A DNA stretch of 64,000 nt from Morinoia aosen (lineage: Eukaryota; Arthropoda; Malacostraca; Amphipoda; Talitridae), in contig CM059574.1 of NCBI GenBank assembly GCA_030386875.1, forward strand, positions 2,425,934 to 2,489,933, written 5' to 3'. The notes under the pieces are model-generated. The model did not search any database, had not been told where the DNA came from, and worked only from the letters and a program-made list of their open reading frames with translations. The stretch's first letter is position 1. Every line of letters starts with the position of its first letter. Shown in pieces: positions 3,907 to 51,270 of this stretch. A program made the translations under genes and the position numbers.

Positions 3907-5499
3907 TCTTTTTATTCATTTTTGGGTTGTTAATACACTCGTTACATCGGAGCTCAGAGTTGCGTTAAAAAAAACAGAATTAGTTTCATGAAATCGATTC
4001 TAGTAATTCTAGTGGAGAGCTGAGTCAGTAATGATTTAGATTAGTAGCGTTTTCACTATGCTAATAATGAATTTGGTTGAATGATTTAGAATTTTTGTTT
4101 CTTAATGAATTGTTACATTTTCTTTAAGGATGGATACGATTTTCCTGTTCTAGTTATTTGTGGTTTATAAACAGAATTGAACGGGCACAAATAGTGTTCA
4201 ATATCGTTTTTGAATGAGTCAAATGTGAAAATGAAATTATTTTTCTTGAAATTATTTTACGTTATTTCTTACATAGATTCTAAACCTTGCATACACTGAT
4301 TGGGATGATTTCCCATCATGAGTCAATGCAAAGTATGGTAGGTGCTGTCTTACTTTCATATCCTGAGTAATCCGAAACGTTTTTTTTTTTTGGGCATACT
4401 TTCCGCTTGATTATCAAACAACAATAGGTAGAATTTACTGTAAAATAATGTAAATGTTTATTGATTGACCTAAGTATGATAACATTACACTCAATATTGA
4501 CCGTAATATTAGCATTATGAATAAATAGCAAACCGTGTGAACTATCATCGAGGCAGCAGAGAAGCGTAGGAATCTTAAATTGGCCTCTGTAATAACTCGT
4601 AACTTACTGACGAGGGAAGCTTAAAATCACGAGGTGAATTATCAGGGGATCCCTACCTTGAAAACAAAAGAATACCTCGGCAGTGTCTGCTCTGCCTCCA
4701 ATGATACTACAACAACAAGAGCAGCAGCAGCATCAAGTTTGGACGATGCCTTAATTAAACGGGTCCGAGCTGAGAACGGTGTTTCGCGAAGAGCAAAGCA
4801 ACGACACAGATGAAAGCTGTTATTCAGAAAGCTCTGAAGGTAAGTTGCATCACAACCACTGTGCTCTTATTTGATTTCTAATATGTGGCCTTATAATCGA
4901 TGTAAATTGTTTTCATTCGCATAAGCGATTGTCAAAGGAATGTAAATAAGCTCGAAATCATACAATCAAGAGCACCTGACTCCTGAATGGCATCATGTGG
5001 TCAGACAGATACCAAATTTTGTAGAGTACGGTAGAGTACGTTGCGCTGCAAGTGTAAATGATGATAGTAGTCATTTGGAGCGATACTAGGTGTAGCCTGT
5101 TATTAAATGGGGAATGACGGGAGTGCCAGATACGGGTGTTGTCTCAACTTACCATCATTCACCATGCTCATCGCGCACGTAGCACTGAAATTAGATTTTT
5201 TATGTGCTTATAACGACAAATTGATAGTATAATAGAGATGTGTTTTAATTATTCTAACACAATTTATTTTCCAACTTTTCAACCTGGCGAAATAGTTTCA
5301 GTTCTTCACGTGTTAGAATACAAAGATTTTCACAAATTATTTTACTGAAATTAACACTCAATTTCTCAAAAATTCTATAAATATCAGTCTATTAGTGGCA
5401 TCGTTTCGATGTTACTAACACCATCCTCGGGATGCCGAAGACAAAACAAACAATTACGTTGGTAAAACTATGTCAATCCAAAATCAAGCTACATCAGAC
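3907..5499. other. Gene-poor interval with one weak exon candidate
   Basis: Mostly unassignable. A frame from about 4757 to 4849 is open, acidic and serine-rich (it contains EEQSNDTDES and ends YSESSE) and runs straight into GTAAGT, a consensus 5' splice site. A stop lies just upstream near 4753 and no matching acceptor is obvious, so this stays a weak exon candidate. A (CAA/CAG)-rich patch lies at 4710-4735 and a repeated GTAGAGTACG at about 5021-5040. Confidence 0.3.
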
Positions 5500-5700
5500 T
5501 GAATATAAATATTAGTAATCCCATTGCGACATGACCAGGTAGGACTTATTTTGTGCAAGATTAAAATTACAGATGCCTAGTTATTAATCACCAGATATTC
5601 ATAAGGTAATGGCACCAGAGATGGAGGCAAATTAGATGATCTACTAGAGGTTCCAAACGTCAAAGCCACAGTCCTACAGAAAAATTTTAGGCCAAAAGAT
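5500..5700 (+). repeat. Left inverted flank of old Penelope-like element
   Basis: This segment matches the reverse complement of about 11600-11780. Shared landmarks include CACCAGATATTC, GGCACCAGAGAT and CTAGTTATTAA in the same order. The two copies lie either side of the split PLE coding remnant. Inverted terminal repeats are a known arrangement in Penelope-like elements, so this is probably the flanking pseudo-LTR. Divergence is considerable, which fits an old insertion. Confidence 0.6.
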
Positions 5701-5739
5701 AATATGTATTTTCGTTAAGGGTAGGTTCAAGTTTATAAA

Positions 5740-6350
5740 TGTGCAGTGCTTTTATAACTTGAACTCTATACCGGTGAAGCCGATTTTATACGGAAGGTAC
5801 GTGGAAGGTATTATCGTTGAAATTGAGATGGTAGAGCAGTTGGAGATTTTGAGGAATTTGATGACTGATAATCCTGTGTTACGTTAACGTATGAGCTGGG
5901 TGTAAATGGGAAGCTGCCATTTCTTGACGTTTCAGTTGAAGCTTCTCACGGTGCTTTTCGCATAACCGTGTATCTAAAGCCCTAGCATGCTGGTGGAACC
6001 AGAAACTGTGATTGTGATGCAGCGCATGTGTATTAAGAAGGCGTTATCCATACCTTGTTAAAGAGCACTCATGAAGTGTGCAGCAGCTGGGCTAGTTTTC
6101 ATTCAAAAATGCTACGATGTTAGCGGTTGCTAGGTAATAACAATTTATCCAATACGCTTATTGGTGGAATTTGTAACTTTGTAAATCGAATTTTGAATGA
6201 GGACCATAATCCAAGATATTATGCGAAAGATAAATATATTTAATGAAAATCAAAAGCATTGCAATTACAAAATTATTGAACGTGTCTTCAAAAATGTTGA
6301 AACTTTCGTGAAACCAATAGATCCAGATATGTCAATAAAACTTCGCGTCG
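5740..6350 (+). pseudogene. Penelope-like element ORF, 5' portion of remnant
   Basis: Fragments of a Penelope-type reverse transcriptase are readable: a degenerate relative of the K-R-Y-V-D-D box (GRYVEGIIVE), then YELGVNGKLPFLDVSVE, which matches the conserved L-P-F-L-D-V stretch, and TVYLKP, the usual TVYRKPT motif with changes. EGVIHTLLKS follows, as in the family. In-frame stops replace ordinary residues (for example TAG where Thr is usual and TAA where Lys is usual), and there are frame changes, so this is normal decay. The frame is cut at 6350 by the hAT-like element and resumes at 11221. Confidence 0.75.
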
Positions 6351-24540: not shown

Positions 24541-25235
24541 CCCAATTGAAAATTATCGCCCTTTTCAGGTAGTAAATTAGTCGTAAAAGGTCGAAAACGG
24601 CCCAAAAGGGCCAAAAACCACGACTTCAAACCGACTCCTACCTATACTTGGCCTATTAGGGCTTGAAAAGGGCTCTTCATTCAACTGACCTTTTATAGGT
24701 CTAGTCAATGGCTGTTTGCGGGCTCATTCGGGTCGTTTAAAGTCGTTTTCAAGCCTTTTCGACGACCTCTATTTGGACGCGTAATAGATTGTAAAAAGAC
24801 TCGTAATCGTAAATGTTGTACAAATCGTATTACTTCAGTAAATGTAAAGAACTAAATGAATTTCAACTAACCTAACTTAGTTAAGTTAGATTAGGTAAGG
24901 GTGGCCAAAGTTAGTTTCGATTAGTTTCATCAATTAATTATTACTATAAATTTTGGTTTAGTAGTTAAAAAAATATTATGCTCATGTAGATATCCAGAGC
25001 TGGTCATAGATACTTCAAAATGTATCTAGATACTAGATACTTCTCCAAAAGTATCTAGATACTAGATAATTTTCTTTTAATTCTCTCTGTCTCACTACTT
25101 CATCGCTGAGCATTCAACTTGTAGTGCTTTACCCTAGTTACCCCTCAAACCTCGATTCTAGTCCTTCTATGTTCAGTAATCTTAATATATCCCAATCTCA
25201 ATTGTTAAAATAAGGGACGTCTTGACAGTGAAGTT

Positions 25236-26233
25236 TCCATTTTTTCAAAATTTTGGGATCAGCATAGACAAATTTGATTTTTTGACCCAAGCTTTCGGCT
25301 AGATTAGCTCTAGCCGTCATCAGGGGAACGATGTATTTTTAAACAAACCTCTTATGGTATCCGCGGGTATCTAGTATACAAAACATTTTTTTTTATTTTT
25401 AAAATTTTTTACATGCAAGCCGAAAATCATTGAGCAAGGGCGACTGATGAGCATAGGAAGAAACTGCGGGGGGACATCAAGATGACGATTAATTTTGTTA
25501 GGTTCCTAAACACTGTACATTGCTTCGACAATTTTTCGAGCGTATTAATTCTTAACATTTTATAATATACATACATTTTAAAAATCAAAAGAATGGTTAT
25601 CTTCTTCGGAATGCTAATAGACGAGGGATAACCTATTCTTCCTCTGCACATTCTTCGCATGCCCATCAATTCGTTGTTAAAGATTTCTACCCGTTTCCCC
25701 AATGTAACATGCTTCACAATTTTTACATTATAATTTATATATAAGATTACTTTTTTCAGAATTCTATCGTTTATCTTTAAGTCTGATTAGGCTGTTTTTT
25801 ATTGTATTCGAAGATTTGAAAGCCAATTTAACATTGAATGGTTTTAAGATTCGCTGGAATCTTTCAGAACAACCTTTAATATACGGGACGCTTACATATT
25901 TCAGGGGGCGTTAGGAATTTTCGTTGCTTTATCGAAGTATGGGGAGGTTTTGATTATTTCCACCAATCGTTCGTCGGTTGCTATTACGTAGTTCCGGAGG
26001 AAAATTATTCTATTTCAATAATTAATCCACTGTTGGAAGTTCTTGCTTCAAATTTTGCTCACTACAAATATTAACTGCTCTCTGATAAAGGGATTTCGCT
26101 ACACTCCTCCTCTGTGATAAGGGATGATAACTGAAATAGTCTAAGTACCTGCCTGTGTTTGTTGGTTTCCGGTAGACCTGGAATTATAATCTATTATTGC
26201 TTAACCGATTAATTAATATATCTAAGTACGGGA
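25236..26233 (-). pseudogene. PLE left arm: inverted copy of RT end and GIY-YIG region
   Basis: On the minus strand this repeats the C-terminal coding part of the plus-strand PLE, from the stretch encoding CIPYLDILI through VYRKPTNTGRY to the GIY-YIG box CEACYIGETGR. The TAA/TAG codons sit at the same places as in the plus copy, so they predate the duplication. The arms differ at only a few positions. One difference turns the plus-strand TGA at 28004 into TGC here. As it lacks the catalytic palm it cannot act alone. Confidence 0.8.
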
Positions 26234-28006
26234 TGCAAATTTATCTAAGTAATAGCTGCATTACAAAGTAGCTAGCGGGTCACGAATATATCTAGAAAAG
26301 AAAAAGTTGCCATTAAAGAATTAAGAGAGGATGACTCAATCGTCATCGCACCTGCAGATAAAGGGAACTCGCTGGTAGTTATTGACCGACGAGATTATGA
26401 ATAAAAAATAGCTGATCACTTAGCGAATAGTAGTACCTATAGGATAATGAACGAAAATAAAACCTATTTAGCAGTAAAGAAAGTGAACAAGCTAATAAAA
26501 TAGTTGAAAGATGAAAATGAACTCACCGACTAATAGCGTAAAGCCTTGTACGTAAACAAGTGCGTGACCCCCCTCTTCTACGCGCTAATCAAAACACACA
26601 AGGAAAACTACCCGATTCGTCCGATCGTATCTTTTATTGATTCACCAACTTATTAAGTTGCAAAATTTTTATCGGGAATTCTAACCCCAATTACAAACGA
26701 GGCATCGCAAAAACTAAAAAATAGCTTTCAAGTCAAGTTATTTTTGCAAGAAATCAACGTTCCGGACAATTATATCCTAGTTTCTTATGATGTGAAGAGT
26801 TTGTTCACTTGTATACCTCAAAATTTTGCTCAGTAATGTGTCGCCGAAAAATTGCAGAACTTCAACTCACCTCTTCAAGTAACTCCGATTTCAACTGAAG
26901 CTATTTTGCGACTCCTCAACCTATGCCTGGAATCTAATCATTTTTAATGGAATCACAAAATTTATCAACAAGTAGAAGGAACACCGATGGGTTCCCCTAT
27001 CTCTGTCGCGTTGGCCGAGATAACAATGCAAGCAATGGAGGATTAATTCCTATCAACACCCCCGTGCCAGCCACTGTTTTGGAAACGTTACGTTGACGAT
27101 ATATTGACTGCACTACCAGAAGATATGCCTGATACATTCCTCCAGCATATCAATGGGTTCAACACCAACATATAATTTATTATGGAATTAGAAAGTAATG
27201 GATGCATCCCGTACTTAGATATATTGATTAATCGGTTAAGCAATAATAGATTATAATTCCAGGTCTACCGGAAACCAACAAACACAGGCAGGTACTTAGA
27301 CTATTTCAGTTATCATCCCTTATCACAGAGGAGAAGTGTAGCGAAATCCCTTTATCGGAGAGCAGTTAATATTTGTAGTGAGCAAAATTTGAAGCAAGAA
27401 CTTTCAACAGTGGATTAATTATTGAAATAGATTAATTTTCCTCCGGAACTACGTAATAGCAACCGACGTATGATTGGTGGAAATAATCAAAACCTCCCCA
27501 TACTTCGATAAAGCAACGAAAATTCCTAACGCCCCCTGAAATATGTAAGCGTCCCGTATATTAAAGGTTGTTCTGAAAGAGTCCAGCGAATCTTAAAACC
27601 ATTCAATGTTAAATTGGCTTTCAAATCTTCGAATACAATAAAAAACAGCCTAATCAGACTTAAAGATAAACGATAGAATTCTGAAAAAAGTAATCTTATA
27701 AATATATTATAATGTAAAAATTGTGAAGCATGTTACATTGGGGAAACGGGTAGAAATCTTTAACAACGAATTGATGAGCATGCGAAGAATGTGCAGAGGA
27801 AGAATAGGTTATCCCTCGTCTATTAGCATTCCGAAGAAGATAACCATTCTTTTGATTTTTAAAATGTATGTATATTATAAAATGTTAAAAATTAATACGC
27901 TCGAAAAATTGTCGAAGCAATGTACAGTGTTTAGGAACCTAACAAAATTAATCGTCATCTTGATGTCCCCCCGCAGTTTCTTCCTATGCTCATCAGTCGC
28001 CCTTGA
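26231..28006 (+). CDS. Penelope-like RT with GIY-YIG endonuclease, in-frame TAA/TAG read as Gln
   Basis: One frame, without frameshift or TGA, from 26231 to a TGA at 28004-28006. Numbering codons from 26282: PADKGNSLVVID at 23-34, SFIDSPTY near 116-123, the A-box region SYDVKSLFTCIP near 166-177, GTPMGSPIS near 233-241, YVDDI at 270-274, CIPYLDILINR near 304-314, VYRKPTNTGRYLDYFS near 327-342, YVSVPYIKGCSERVQRILKP in the linker, then CKNCEACYIGETGR from codon 478, the GIY-YIG nuclease start, with R-I-D-E-H and ARKIVEA following. Codons 1-574 hold 16 TAA and 6 TAG, against about 21 CAA/CAG. Several TAR codons sit at family glutamine sites (before WNHKIYQQ, before F-I-M-E-L-E, before CKNC). Under the standard code it is dead; under a UAR=Gln code it is intact apart from the missing 5' end. 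The role in the family is target-primed reverse transcription with nuclease cleavage of the target. Confidence 0.85.
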
Positions 28007-28115
28007 TCAATGATTTTCGGCTTGCATGTAAAAAATTTTAAAAATAAAAAAAATGTTTTGTATACTGGATACCCGCGGATACCATAAGAGGTTTGTTTAA
28101 AAATACATCGTTCCC

Positions 28116-28158
28116 CTGATGACGGCTAGAGCTAATCTAGCCGAAAGCTTGGGTCAAA
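28116..28158 (+). other. Conserved terminal hairpin, hammerhead-like
   Basis: CTGATGA (28116-28122) is followed by a perfect hairpin CGGCTAGA / TCTAGCCG and then AAAG. This resembles the hammerhead ribozyme core reported in Penelope-like elements. To leave GAAA free, the stem must lose its outer C-G pair, leaving one extra base after CTGATGA, and stem III is unclear. A mirror copy is on the minus strand at about 25288-25330. I call the hairpin, not a ribozyme. Confidence 0.5.
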
Positions 28159-28550
28159 AAATCAAATTTGTCTTTGCTGATCCCAAAATTTTGAAAAAAT
28201 GGAAAGATATCCCAATGTAAATTTAATCAAGAAAAAGTTCCCACTTCTCCGCAGCGTATCACCGATACCTACAGCCGGAGAAGTGTAAAAGTATAAGGCC
28301 GCTGCTTCACTCGCCTCAAATCGGAACTCACTAGGCGAAGCAGCCACAAGACCCGGCCTTACAAACTCTTTACATCGTATAGAAAATCTGATGTTGGAGC
28401 GATCTGATCTGCTCCATTATGCCACTGGTGTAAATCAATACTAAGTAATTTTCATATTTATTTCGTTAATAAATGAAAATTTTAATTTTCATTGGTATAA
28501 TGTTTCAATTTGGGACTTTTGATTCCATATGTCTTTTTGTTTTTAAGGCC

Positions 28551-28800
28551 GGGCGTAAGGAAGCCCAAAAGGGCCGGTATTAGCCTTGATCAAGCAGTAA
28601 GGAAGCCCAAAAGGGCCGGTATTAGCCTTGATCAAGCAGTAAGGAAGCCCAAAAGGGCCGGTATTAGCCTTGATCAAGCAGTAAGGAAGCCCAAAAAGGC
28701 CAGGAAGAGGCTAGTTCAAGCAATGGAAAAGCCAAAAATGGTCGTGAATAGCCTCGATCAGGTAGTAGAGAAGCCCAAAATGGCCGTTGCATTAGCCGTT
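28551..28800 (+). repeat. 42-bp tandem repeat with GGCCC-AAAA-GGGCC-like core
   Basis: Three exact and about three diverged 42-bp units, each with AGCCCAAAAGGGCCGGTATT and CTTGATCAAGC. Because 42 is a multiple of three, the frame 28510-28866 repeats the 14-residue unit RKPKRAGISLDQAV. The unit also consists of palindromic words (TTGATCAA, CCCAAAAGGG), which fits subterminal transposon repeats better than a protein. Confidence 0.85.
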
Positions 28801-48643: not shown

Positions 48644-51270
48644 TTGAGACCGAGTCTCTGCGACGCACGCTTCTGATTCAGAATCATTGCGCAGAGCTTC
48701 ACAGCTCTCAAGTTCTTTAATTGATGATTATCGCTTATGGGTAGTCTGCTTAAATATTCAGCTACAATATTTTGCCCGCCAGGTAGGTATTTAACAATAG
48801 GATCGTAGGAATGAACGTTTATACACCACCTTGCCATTGACGCGTCCTCTTGGAGTTTCCTAATAAACAGAGGGGTCAATGGTTTGTGATCCGTGTAAAC
48901 ACGGATTGGATATTCAGTTATTAAATATTTAAAAGCTTTAGGAGCTGAATACAGATCAAAAAACTCTTTTTTTGTGGTACTATAGCGTTTTTTGGCTGGA
49001 ATTTAAGCTTTTACTAAAATAAGCTACAGGACGCAATATTTCATCGCTTGAATCTTCGGCCTGCATCACAACAGCTCTGATCCCAAAATTAGATGCGTCA
49101 GTAAATATGAGAAAGTCTTTCGTGTAGTCAGGATGTCTTAAAACCGTCTCAGATGTCAGAGCAGATTTAATATAAACAAAACTTTTCTGGCATTCGTCGT
49201 TGCAATCAACAAACAACATTTTTCCTTAAAAGCCTGTACAAGGGATAGGCAATTTCAGAGATATTAGGAAAAAAATTCTAAAATAGTTTGCTGACCTAAG
49301 AACTGCTGCAACTCTTTCACATTAATGGGAGCCCCACAGCTCTGAAGTTTTTCCGAACTCCTGCACCTTATACCATCCGCAGCAATAATATGCCCAAGAT
49401 ATTCAATTTCGTTTTAGAGAAGTGACATTTTTTCAAGTTTTATTGACAAATTCCCAGACCGAAGCATCGTAAGGACACTTCCAATGTCAGTTAAGTGTTG
49501 ATTTTTAGTCTTCGAATATAATAAAATATCGTCCAGAGAGACGAAGCACATTTGACCTAGAATAGGCGCAAGCACAGAGGTCATCACCCTCTGGAACACT
49601 GTTGGACTCGAACTCAACCCGAAAAGGTTTCGCCGGAACTGGAATTTCCGACACCCTATACTAAAAGCTGTAAATTTCCGTCTCTCTTGGTCCAATTCGA
49701 TCTGATGGAATGCGGAACGCAAATCTAAAGCTGAAAAGAGTGTGCTACCTCCTAATGTCGACAGTATTTCATCGATTCTGGGTATATGATAAGATTCTTT
49801 CACCACAATCTTATTAAGAGCCCTGAAATCGATCACGGGGCGAAGCTTCCCGCTTTTCTTCTTTACAACAATTACGGGGAAGTTATAGTTAGACATCGAC
49901 ACTTCAATTATTCCCTGTGAGTGCATATCATTAGTAATTTTTGCTAACTCCTCCTGATATTTATGAGGTATTCTATATGGAGTAATATTCAGGACTGGTG
50001 CATCCGGTTTTAACTGTATCCGGTGCGACATAACATTAGTAACTCCAATTGTTTCCCCTTCAAGCGTAATAACATCACGGAACTGATTTAATAAATTTAC
50101 CAAAGTTAACTGCATGTCCTCTTCGTGACATGAAATATCATCTTTCATTAAAGAACGACGTACGTCCTGCTGTACACTACTGTTGTACACACCCTCTACT
50201 TGTGCATTAACTCTTAGCACCTCACTACTAGAAAGAACTCGATCTCCGCCGCGTTCGTCTGACTCCAACTCAAGTGTTTTTCCGGCTATGGTCTTAATTC
50301 CACCACTATGCGAGACTACTTGCATAGAATCCGACATAGCGTCAGAGCTTCTCTCAACAGTATTAGCGTCACTGAGCGCTGCCTCAACGCTAGTGAGATA
50401 CATCTCACTTTCAACCTCATCAGCTGCAATTAATTCCAAATTGCACATCATTGTATTTTCGTTGAAATAAATCGCGTCATCTTGAGCATTTAGTATCATT
50501 ACTGGCACTACACCGTCTTCCTCGACGTGTACGAATGATTCTGCTAACAATGCTCCATTATCAAAACCTCGTTTCAAAACCAAATACTCGCCGGGTTCTG
50601 CCTTTTTAACAAATCCGTAAACTTCTTGCATTGAATTACCCTGTGCATCGACTGTAGTGCAATGAACTACTAGAGGCGATCTCTTTTTTCTGATCTCTGG
50701 CCTTGGCTTCGATGCAGCTCGCTGAAGCACGACTTTTTGCATCTTTTCTTTTCTGCAGTCACTATATCTCAACGCACGGTAACTGCCTCTGTGGCTCTTC
50801 TCGGTAACTATTACATCAGAAAGTAAACAGTCACTGTTTACAATACTCTTACACACAGCTTCTCTATTTATTGCTGGTTCCGCTTGTAATTCTTTAAAAG
50901 GCACACTAACCCCCTCCCACTCGAGGGATCCTTCTTTAAAATTCATTTTGGCATTATTCAGCACACCTCTTCCTAAAATCAAATCATAATTAAATTTTGC
51001 ATCTTTAACGATCAAAGCACTAGTCTAAGTACCCTGTTACTACCAGGAATTGAGATAGTTAAATCGACTTCTCCACTTACATTACTTTTACTGTTAATTC
51101 CTTAGACGCTCAGACAACTAGGCTTTAATTTCTCATTCAGGCACTTAATTTGCTTGTATCTAATGAGGCACTTCTCAGAGCCGCTTTCTAATAGCGAGCT
51201 CAAATACTGATCATTCCTGCTCAAAAATATAGTAGGTTTTCTAGCCTTACGTAAAGTAACTAATCCGGCG
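48640..51270 (-). pseudogene. Ty3/Gypsy protease, reverse transcriptase and RNase H
   Basis: 51270-51016 contains protease-like sequence in which the active-site triplet reads E-S-G (LLESGSEKCLI) where D-S/T-G is expected, and a frameshift. 51015-49414 continues with YDLILGRGVL and the reverse transcriptase: VVKKKSGKLRPVIDFRALNK, FSALDLRSAFHQIEL, FQFRRNLFGLSSSPTVFQRV and FVSLDDILLYSK. The catalytic pair DD is kept but the usual tyrosine before it is serine. 49219-48980 and 48879-48640 are RNase H (FLIFTDASNFGIRAV, then VAYFSKSLNSS). Frame breaks lie between each block. The ~320 codons between protease and RT are unusually long and contain no domain I know. Confidence 0.88.

Follow-up and report, generated by a model that had tools for sequence, protein, structure and literature searches.

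Introduction

Changes of the genetic code are thought to sweep through a whole nuclear genome. Recoded bacteriophages use suppressor tRNAs in standard-code bacteria, and Naiad elements, which belong to the Penelope-like elements (PLEs), reportedly read in-frame UGA as selenocysteine. In the ciliate nuclear code (NCBI table 6), both UAA and UAG (UAR; TAR in DNA) specify glutamine. The PLE described here appears to treat UAR likewise, with UGA as its sole stop; it departs from the ciliate case in that this reading is found within a single lineage of retrotransposons, and in an animal with Hsp70 genes that end in UAA. The parallel with Naiad is that a PLE gives a sense meaning to stop codons inside its frame, but the codon, the amino acid and the machinery differ. 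As with recoded phages, a genetic parasite would have stop codons read as amino acids by a tRNA dedicated to them, except that here the setting is an animal nucleus and the candidate tRNA genes lie in the chromosome, outside the element.

The Pen families of Adineta vaga (PMC3846280) are PLEs with a reverse transcriptase (RT) followed by a C-terminal GIY-YIG endonuclease. The present element has the same order of domains, and with C-terminal GIY-YIG PLEs it shares a fold like that of telomerase RT, inverted and direct end repeats and a target-site duplication (TSD) and, with elements such as Pen, an end repeat that takes in the start of the open reading frame (ORF). It differs from the Pen families in having in-frame UAA and UAG apparently as Gln, at about half of its Gln codons.

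Results

The window insertion is a typical Penelope-like element

The element is a Penelope-like retrotransposon, and its insertion in the window (the whole stretch of 64,000 nucleotides that was analysed) is typical of PLEs: a copy truncated at its 5' end and preceded by a partial copy in inverted orientation, between 12-bp TSDs (Table 1). The forward-strand frame 26231-28006 comprises 592 codons, including 17 TAA, 7 TAG, 13 CAA and 9 CAG, and its sole TGA is the terminal codon (28004-28006). An earlier note on this DNA had described one unshifted frame of about 590 codons with 24 TAA/TAG and no TGA before 28004, and the count agrees; the CAA/CAG codons, put there at about 21, number 22, and TAR does make up approximately half of the presumed Gln codons, as stated there. 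Codon 6, a TAA (26246-26248), lies on the junction with the inverted 5' arm, and we count 23 TARs as the element's own because other copies align only from 26248. Random decay had been argued to yield TGA as well; zero TGA among 24 random one-step stops has a probability of about 0.0006 under transition/transversion weights of our choosing. Between the inverted arm and 27203-28205 there are 16 differences in 1004 columns, none of them inside a TAR codon.

Translated with table 6, the protein had 1540 homologs, the best being 47% identical over 98%. That the RT is of the PLE type is indicated by the Pfam RVT_1 match together with structural matches to telomerase RT: the predicted fold (pLDDT 84.4) had telomerase RT for all 12 of its best Foldseek matches in the PDB (TM approximately 0.4), the first being 3du5 (E 2e-10, TM 0.44). 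The C-terminal GIY-YIG domain scored weakly, yet CKNC...YIGETGR is present, and C495, C498, Y502 and G504 were invariant across 20 aligned PLEs. Both the inverted/direct pLTR arrangement and the TSD are found at the window insertion. Phylogenies of 57 and 58 PLE proteins placed the element inside a well-supported group (100/100), whose other members are predicted at source with intact frames and therefore presumably use the standard code.

Table 1. Positions in the window of the element, its parts and a second PLE fragment.
Feature	Position	Strand	Remarks
Penelope-like ORF, codons 7-592, 5'-truncated copy	26248..28006	+	23 TAA/TAG read as Gln, TGA end
Reverse transcriptase domain, Pfam RVT_1, residues 177-297	26759..27121	+	6.5e-07, 29.7 bits, cut-off 29.6
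GTPMGSP motif	26978-26998	+	within RVT_1 region
YVDD motif	27089-27100	+	within RVT_1 region
GIY-YIG endonuclease match, residues 492-527	27704..27811	+	E 0.00023, 21.8 bits, just below the cut-off of 22.6
Element 3' end, repeated in inverted arm, pLTR-like	28007..28206	+	
Inverted partial copy of the element's 3' part	25199..26237	-	98.4% identical to 27203-28205
Left target-site duplication ATATCCCAATCT	25187..25198	.	
Right target-site duplication ATATCCCAATGT	28207..28218	.	11/12 matching left
Fragment of second, distant PLE, ~31% identity	5878..6165	+	3 TAR, 0 CAR, 0 TGA in 96 codons

The other PLE of the window had been described as decayed with TGA, which its fragment does not contain (Table 1). 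A TGA-free run at 5225-6193 was considered as a TAR-coded PLE and rejected, its frame differing from that of this fragment. The Gypsy-like pol frame at 49258-51132 has nine TARs, seven in the first 36 residues and two deeper. By eye, a short tandem repeat was seen 3' of the element (28542-28720). A CTGATGA...GAAA stretch at 28113-28150 resembles the hammerhead motif, which occurs at PLE ends; Rfam returned no match for this stretch, nor for any known RNA family within 25000-28500, up to E 0.1.

TAR codons fall on columns of glutamine type

The residues at the TAR columns were read from 24 near homologs (P0002-P0025), no pair of which was 80% identical. Gln made up 14.8% of residues at the 23 TAR columns, compared with 21.9% at the 22 columns with CAA or CAG (CAR) and 2.5% at the others, and when 23 columns were drawn at random 5000 times, only 2 draws attained the Gln level of the TAR columns; with the junction codon included, the share was 15.8% and a single random set in 5000 reached it. 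Gln also had the top log-odds at TAR columns (2.0), with Glu and Asp next (0.85), and on these values we rejected a reading of UAR as Glu, which is the reading of peritrich ciliates. Most TAR columns are variable, Gln being the commonest residue in just 5 of the 23. For a full-length copy elsewhere in the genome (L012; 801 codons, 35 TAR, 31 CAR), Gln accounted for 13.9% at TAR columns, 18.6% at CAR columns and 2.7% at the others. Family B, a further PLE family of the genome read over 300 codons of one copy, is identical to family A at 129 of the 300 and has 15 TAR, 13 CAA and no TGA; its TAR columns contained 15.4% Gln against 2.7%, and one of its TAAs stands on a column that is Gln in all 24 near homologs. 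TARs on Gln-type columns and TGA as terminator only point to a UAR=Gln code in the element, and the proportion of Gln codons that are TAR suggests a long time under such a code.

Near-identical copies are dispersed through the host genome

The flanking DNA had been attributed to an insect, which is incorrect. The host most probably belongs to the talitrid amphipods, since its mitochondrial COI matches that of Platorchestia sp. at 98% identity and the other 119 proteins among the matches listed at 90% or less. A search of the host genome (1.99 Gb, 29 contigs), in which 40 of 463 candidates were scored, gave at least 47 matches to the element on 19 of the 29 contigs, and 46 of these were 96-100% identical. 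Such near-identity suggests recent amplification in the host genome. Contamination as a source was rejected on the spread over 19 contigs and on a dispersed repeat that the flank of one copy (L010) shares with the window.

From 32 fetched stretches we obtained 62 aligned pieces, of which the 42 that started by query base 230 and reached the end were used and 20 were dropped. Sister copies with CAA or CAG at the TAR sites would have spoken against the earlier note; instead, 22 of 23 sites were TAR in at least 90% of the covering rows, and 12 in every covering row. The exception was codon 544, with TAA in 11 and GAA in 29 of the 42 copies. All 42 retain the terminal TGA, an inner TGA was found at three codons in four rows, and 14 rows had small indels relative to the window copy. 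A recognisable start was present in 20 copies, in frame in 16 and out of frame in 4, and the 16 in-frame N-terminal pieces add 11-13 TARs and no TGA in 216-217 codons. Two copies on C17 (L015 and L018, at 17.49 and 18.22 Mb) have a common 3' flank beyond the element, and represent a duplicated segment rather than two insertions.

Shared variants bear the mark of purifying selection

With TAR read as Gln, variants between copies were classed as private (one locus) or shared (at least two loci). Private variants, from which 14 codon variants with multiple changes had been set aside, numbered 335 and were distributed as by chance, with 94 synonymous (88 expected), 238 nonsynonymous and 3 TGA. Among the 103 shared variants, by contrast with chance, 51 were synonymous (28 expected; 0 of 5000 simulations), 52 were nonsynonymous and none was TGA. 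Sixty-six of the shared variants conflict with the tree, through either recombination or recurrent change, and the 37 consistent with it included 19 synonymous ones versus 10 expected (P 0.0002). When the tree-consistent variants were divided by spread, those common to 2-4 loci comprised 18 synonymous and 15 nonsynonymous changes, and the four common to five or more loci comprised 1 and 3, respectively. The duplicated segment containing L015 and L018 would weaken the selection signal, not create it.

The selection test between genomic copies called for earlier thus gives purifying selection on the shared variants, and by this test TAR would have been translated as an amino acid in the lineages that spawned new copies; the neutrality of private variants suggests that each copy decays neutrally after landing. 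Together with the Gln-type TAR columns, this supports the proposal that UAA and UAG mean Gln in the element and that it functioned under such a code.

The altered code looks peculiar to these PLEs

P0014, a relative with an intact standard-code frame, was used as a query and gave 12912 candidates; all 92 scored PLE matches carried 13-25 TARs, and any TGA was present in 7 of the 92. These matches form approximately three identity groups (up to 51%, 42-44% and 40-41%), of which A and B were read. A second query, P0070, which resembles coral PLEs in the pieces compared, gave 16837 candidates, and its 76 matches were all TAR-laden (19-31 TARs), with TGA in 7. The two lists overlap and contain the best matches only, so that other PLEs may differ. 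By the tree test (AU p 0.278), families A and B may or may not share a single TAR-coded clade.

Among the best 150 of 52382 RVT_1 candidates, a list that is unsorted as to LINE or LTR and favours intact copies, 135 were without a stop and 15 had one or two, and the open frames reached 1436 codons. In Hsp70, the only host gene family examined, the four animal genes that were read all end in EEVD-TAA, one of them having an inner TAG, and 48 of the 53 scored Hsp70/DnaK matches had no inner stop, at least two of these matches being bacterial. Judged by this family, UAR=Gln is not the ordinary code of the host nucleus. A host-wide code change was rejected on the TAA ends of the Hsp70 genes and the stop-free best RVT_1 frames, and from the sequences compared the UAR=Gln code looks peculiar to these PLEs.

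The Hsp70 clusters are large, many of the 53 scored matches lying in tandem on C3, C4 and C21. On the chromosome-size contig C27 (55.3-72.0 Mb; L041, L042), bacterial dnaK, accompanied in L042 by dnaJ, was found along with several cox1 matches with open frames; this DNA may belong to a symbiont or contaminant joined in the assembly, or may represent large transfers. Mitochondrial-type cox1 (with inner TGA) occurs in several copies on C28 and C29 and in pieces on C26, C22 and C11.

A cluster of candidate suppressor tRNA genes lies on the same contig

A tRNA-Gln pattern search of the genome gave 35 matches, with anticodon TTG in 13 and CTG in 22, and since all 35 carry these ordinary anticodons, suppressors arising from ordinary tRNA-Gln by an anticodon change alone were rejected. 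A looser pattern gave 45 sites (3 in a reversed control), namely the same 35, seven on C19, one on C18 and two on C1 and C14. The seven C19 sites lie within 20 kb (16,095,218-16,115,297), 13.6 Mb from the window element on the same contig. Seven of the eight sites fetched, comprising all of those on C19, are complete tRNA genes (Rfam 66-73 bits) with anticodon TTA (UUA) in five and CTA (CUA) in two; no tRNA is encoded at the C18 site. The cluster was read in parts, and seven is a lower bound.

All seven genes fold, and each has TTTT 3-4 bases downstream, a terminator of the pol III type. Their bodies are 92-100% identical, whereas their 5' flanks are 47-71% identical (mean 55%; 49% when shuffled); two of the seven have an alignable 3' flank in common (79% over 198 bases including the gene). 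This contrast suggests that selection or gene conversion preserved the bodies as the sequence around them changed. Compared with four host tRNA-Gln genes, a comparison limited to the Gln isotype, they were identical at only 51-57 of 72 positions. The acceptor stem GGUCCCA/UGGGACC is exact in four of the seven, and six have U73; the host tRNA-Gln genes have GGUUCUA/UAGAACC and U73. One gene shows a compensated acceptor-stem change, and another (L058) is damaged at its ends, with a broken 1:72 pair and G73. We take the GGUCCCA/UGGGACC stem to occur also in animal tRNA-Gln, an assumption on which the Gln identity partly rests, and on these features the seven UUA/CUA tRNAs are likely tRNA-Gln-like. 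No PLE sequence was found beside the tRNA genes in the pieces compared, and ARAGORN found no tRNA gene in eight copy loci or the window. Between two of the tRNA genes lies a minisatellite array with a long open frame (L061, 5437-6904).

Discussion

The UAA and UAG codons of this PLE fit Gln best and are probably decoded in the host by the seven-gene UUA/CUA tRNA cluster on the same contig. Going beyond this, we lean towards the reading that two genetic codes may coexist in one animal nucleus: UAA and UAG would be stops for host genes and other retrotransposons, and the UAR=Gln PLEs would be read by a dedicated suppressor tRNA-Gln cluster preserved by selection. Such an arrangement would parallel recoded phages in an animal and could act as a lock confining the transposon to cells in which these tRNAs are made. 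The candidate tRNAs would have to be made and charged with Gln, and would compete with termination at UAA and UAG, not at UGA. Suppression would be confined to certain cells or times, e.g. the germ line. This restriction is suggested by the host Hsp70 genes, which still end in UAA; moreover, under a constitutive germ-line UAR suppressor other retrotransposons should drift to TAR, which the best-scoring ones have not done, so that a restriction must be assumed. In permissive cells the RT/endonuclease of approximately 800 codons would be completed and end at UGA, and in other cells translation would break off where the first UAR occurs.

A ciliate-type donor, which the earlier note had favoured as the source, is not supported, given the near-identical copies, the other TAR-laden PLE groups and the UUA/CUA tRNA genes in the host. 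Decoding in the host explains more than such a transfer, which is not required, because TAR-laden PLE groups, signs of recent amplification and seven tRNA genes are found in this genome. Organisms with UAR as Gln include ciliates, oxymonads, diplomonads and ulvophyte algae, and a broader alternative would be that the families evolved in some such organism and were passed horizontally to the amphipod more than once, their copies being dead or moved in trans and the tRNA cluster unrelated. We regard this as unlikely. The code itself would fit such a donor, private changes in the host are neutral, and PLE end sequences can be mobilised in trans, as reported for Pen3a (PMC3846280), but several families and many separate insertions would be required, the tree-consistent variants common to 2-4 loci are under selection, and it would be a coincidence that this genome holds seven UUA/CUA tRNA genes. 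No UAR=Gln lineage was found among the organisms named in the best 120 of the 1540 matches, a minority of which carry names, and viral and prokaryote contigs yielded no relative. As to origin, the code may have changed in the amphipod lineage itself or may have come in by transfer from a donor that reads UAR as Gln; the tRNA cluster favours the former.

Neutral private variants would equally be expected if the copies were non-coding passengers moved by another enzyme, their frame being a relic of an older TAR-coded element that is untranslated today, and the 5' truncation of the window copy and the 4 of 20 copies with the start out of frame agree with this. Such a reading seems improbable in view of the synonymous excess and lack of TGA among shared variants, the 16 of 20 N-terminal pieces that are in frame without TGA, and the lack of a TAR-free PLE as helper among the best 92 and 76 matches. 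Editing of U to C, turning UAR into CAR in the messenger, would arguably likewise yield exact Gln, spare TGA and make a special tRNA unnecessary; we know of no editing on such a scale in animals, and since the tRNA cluster would be left unexplained we consider it highly improbable. To a mutational origin of the stops, by plain decay or a process such as CpA to TpA hypermutation, we give almost no credence. CAR does become TAR by one transition, and CpA is slightly lower in the element (0.86 vs 1.06 of expectation), but TpA/ApT is 0.88 there against 0.86 for the remainder of the window, 88 of the 98 conserved columns remain intact, the window copy has no inner TGA, and selection on shared variants contradicts it; random decay and RIP-like mutation were rejected on the selection, dinucleotide and TGA-absence tests.

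Should the preferred reading, decoding by the host's UUA/CUA tRNA cluster, be correct, one mobile lineage would differ in code from its host. Nature would then offer a case, open to testing, in which a single nucleus uses two codes, together with a novel means of limiting a transposon to particular cells and, possibly, code reassignment at an early point. Among the results listed for searches of open PMC text there was no publication on retroelements with UAR=Gln or on suppressor tRNAs of crustaceans. Families of this kind would be labelled 'decayed' by standard-code annotation.

One of the Hsp70 sequences, L046 (C3:9301427-9303250), is otherwise full-length and has a single in-frame TAG where its sisters have Tyr; this gene offers a way of testing whether suppression extends to genes of the host.
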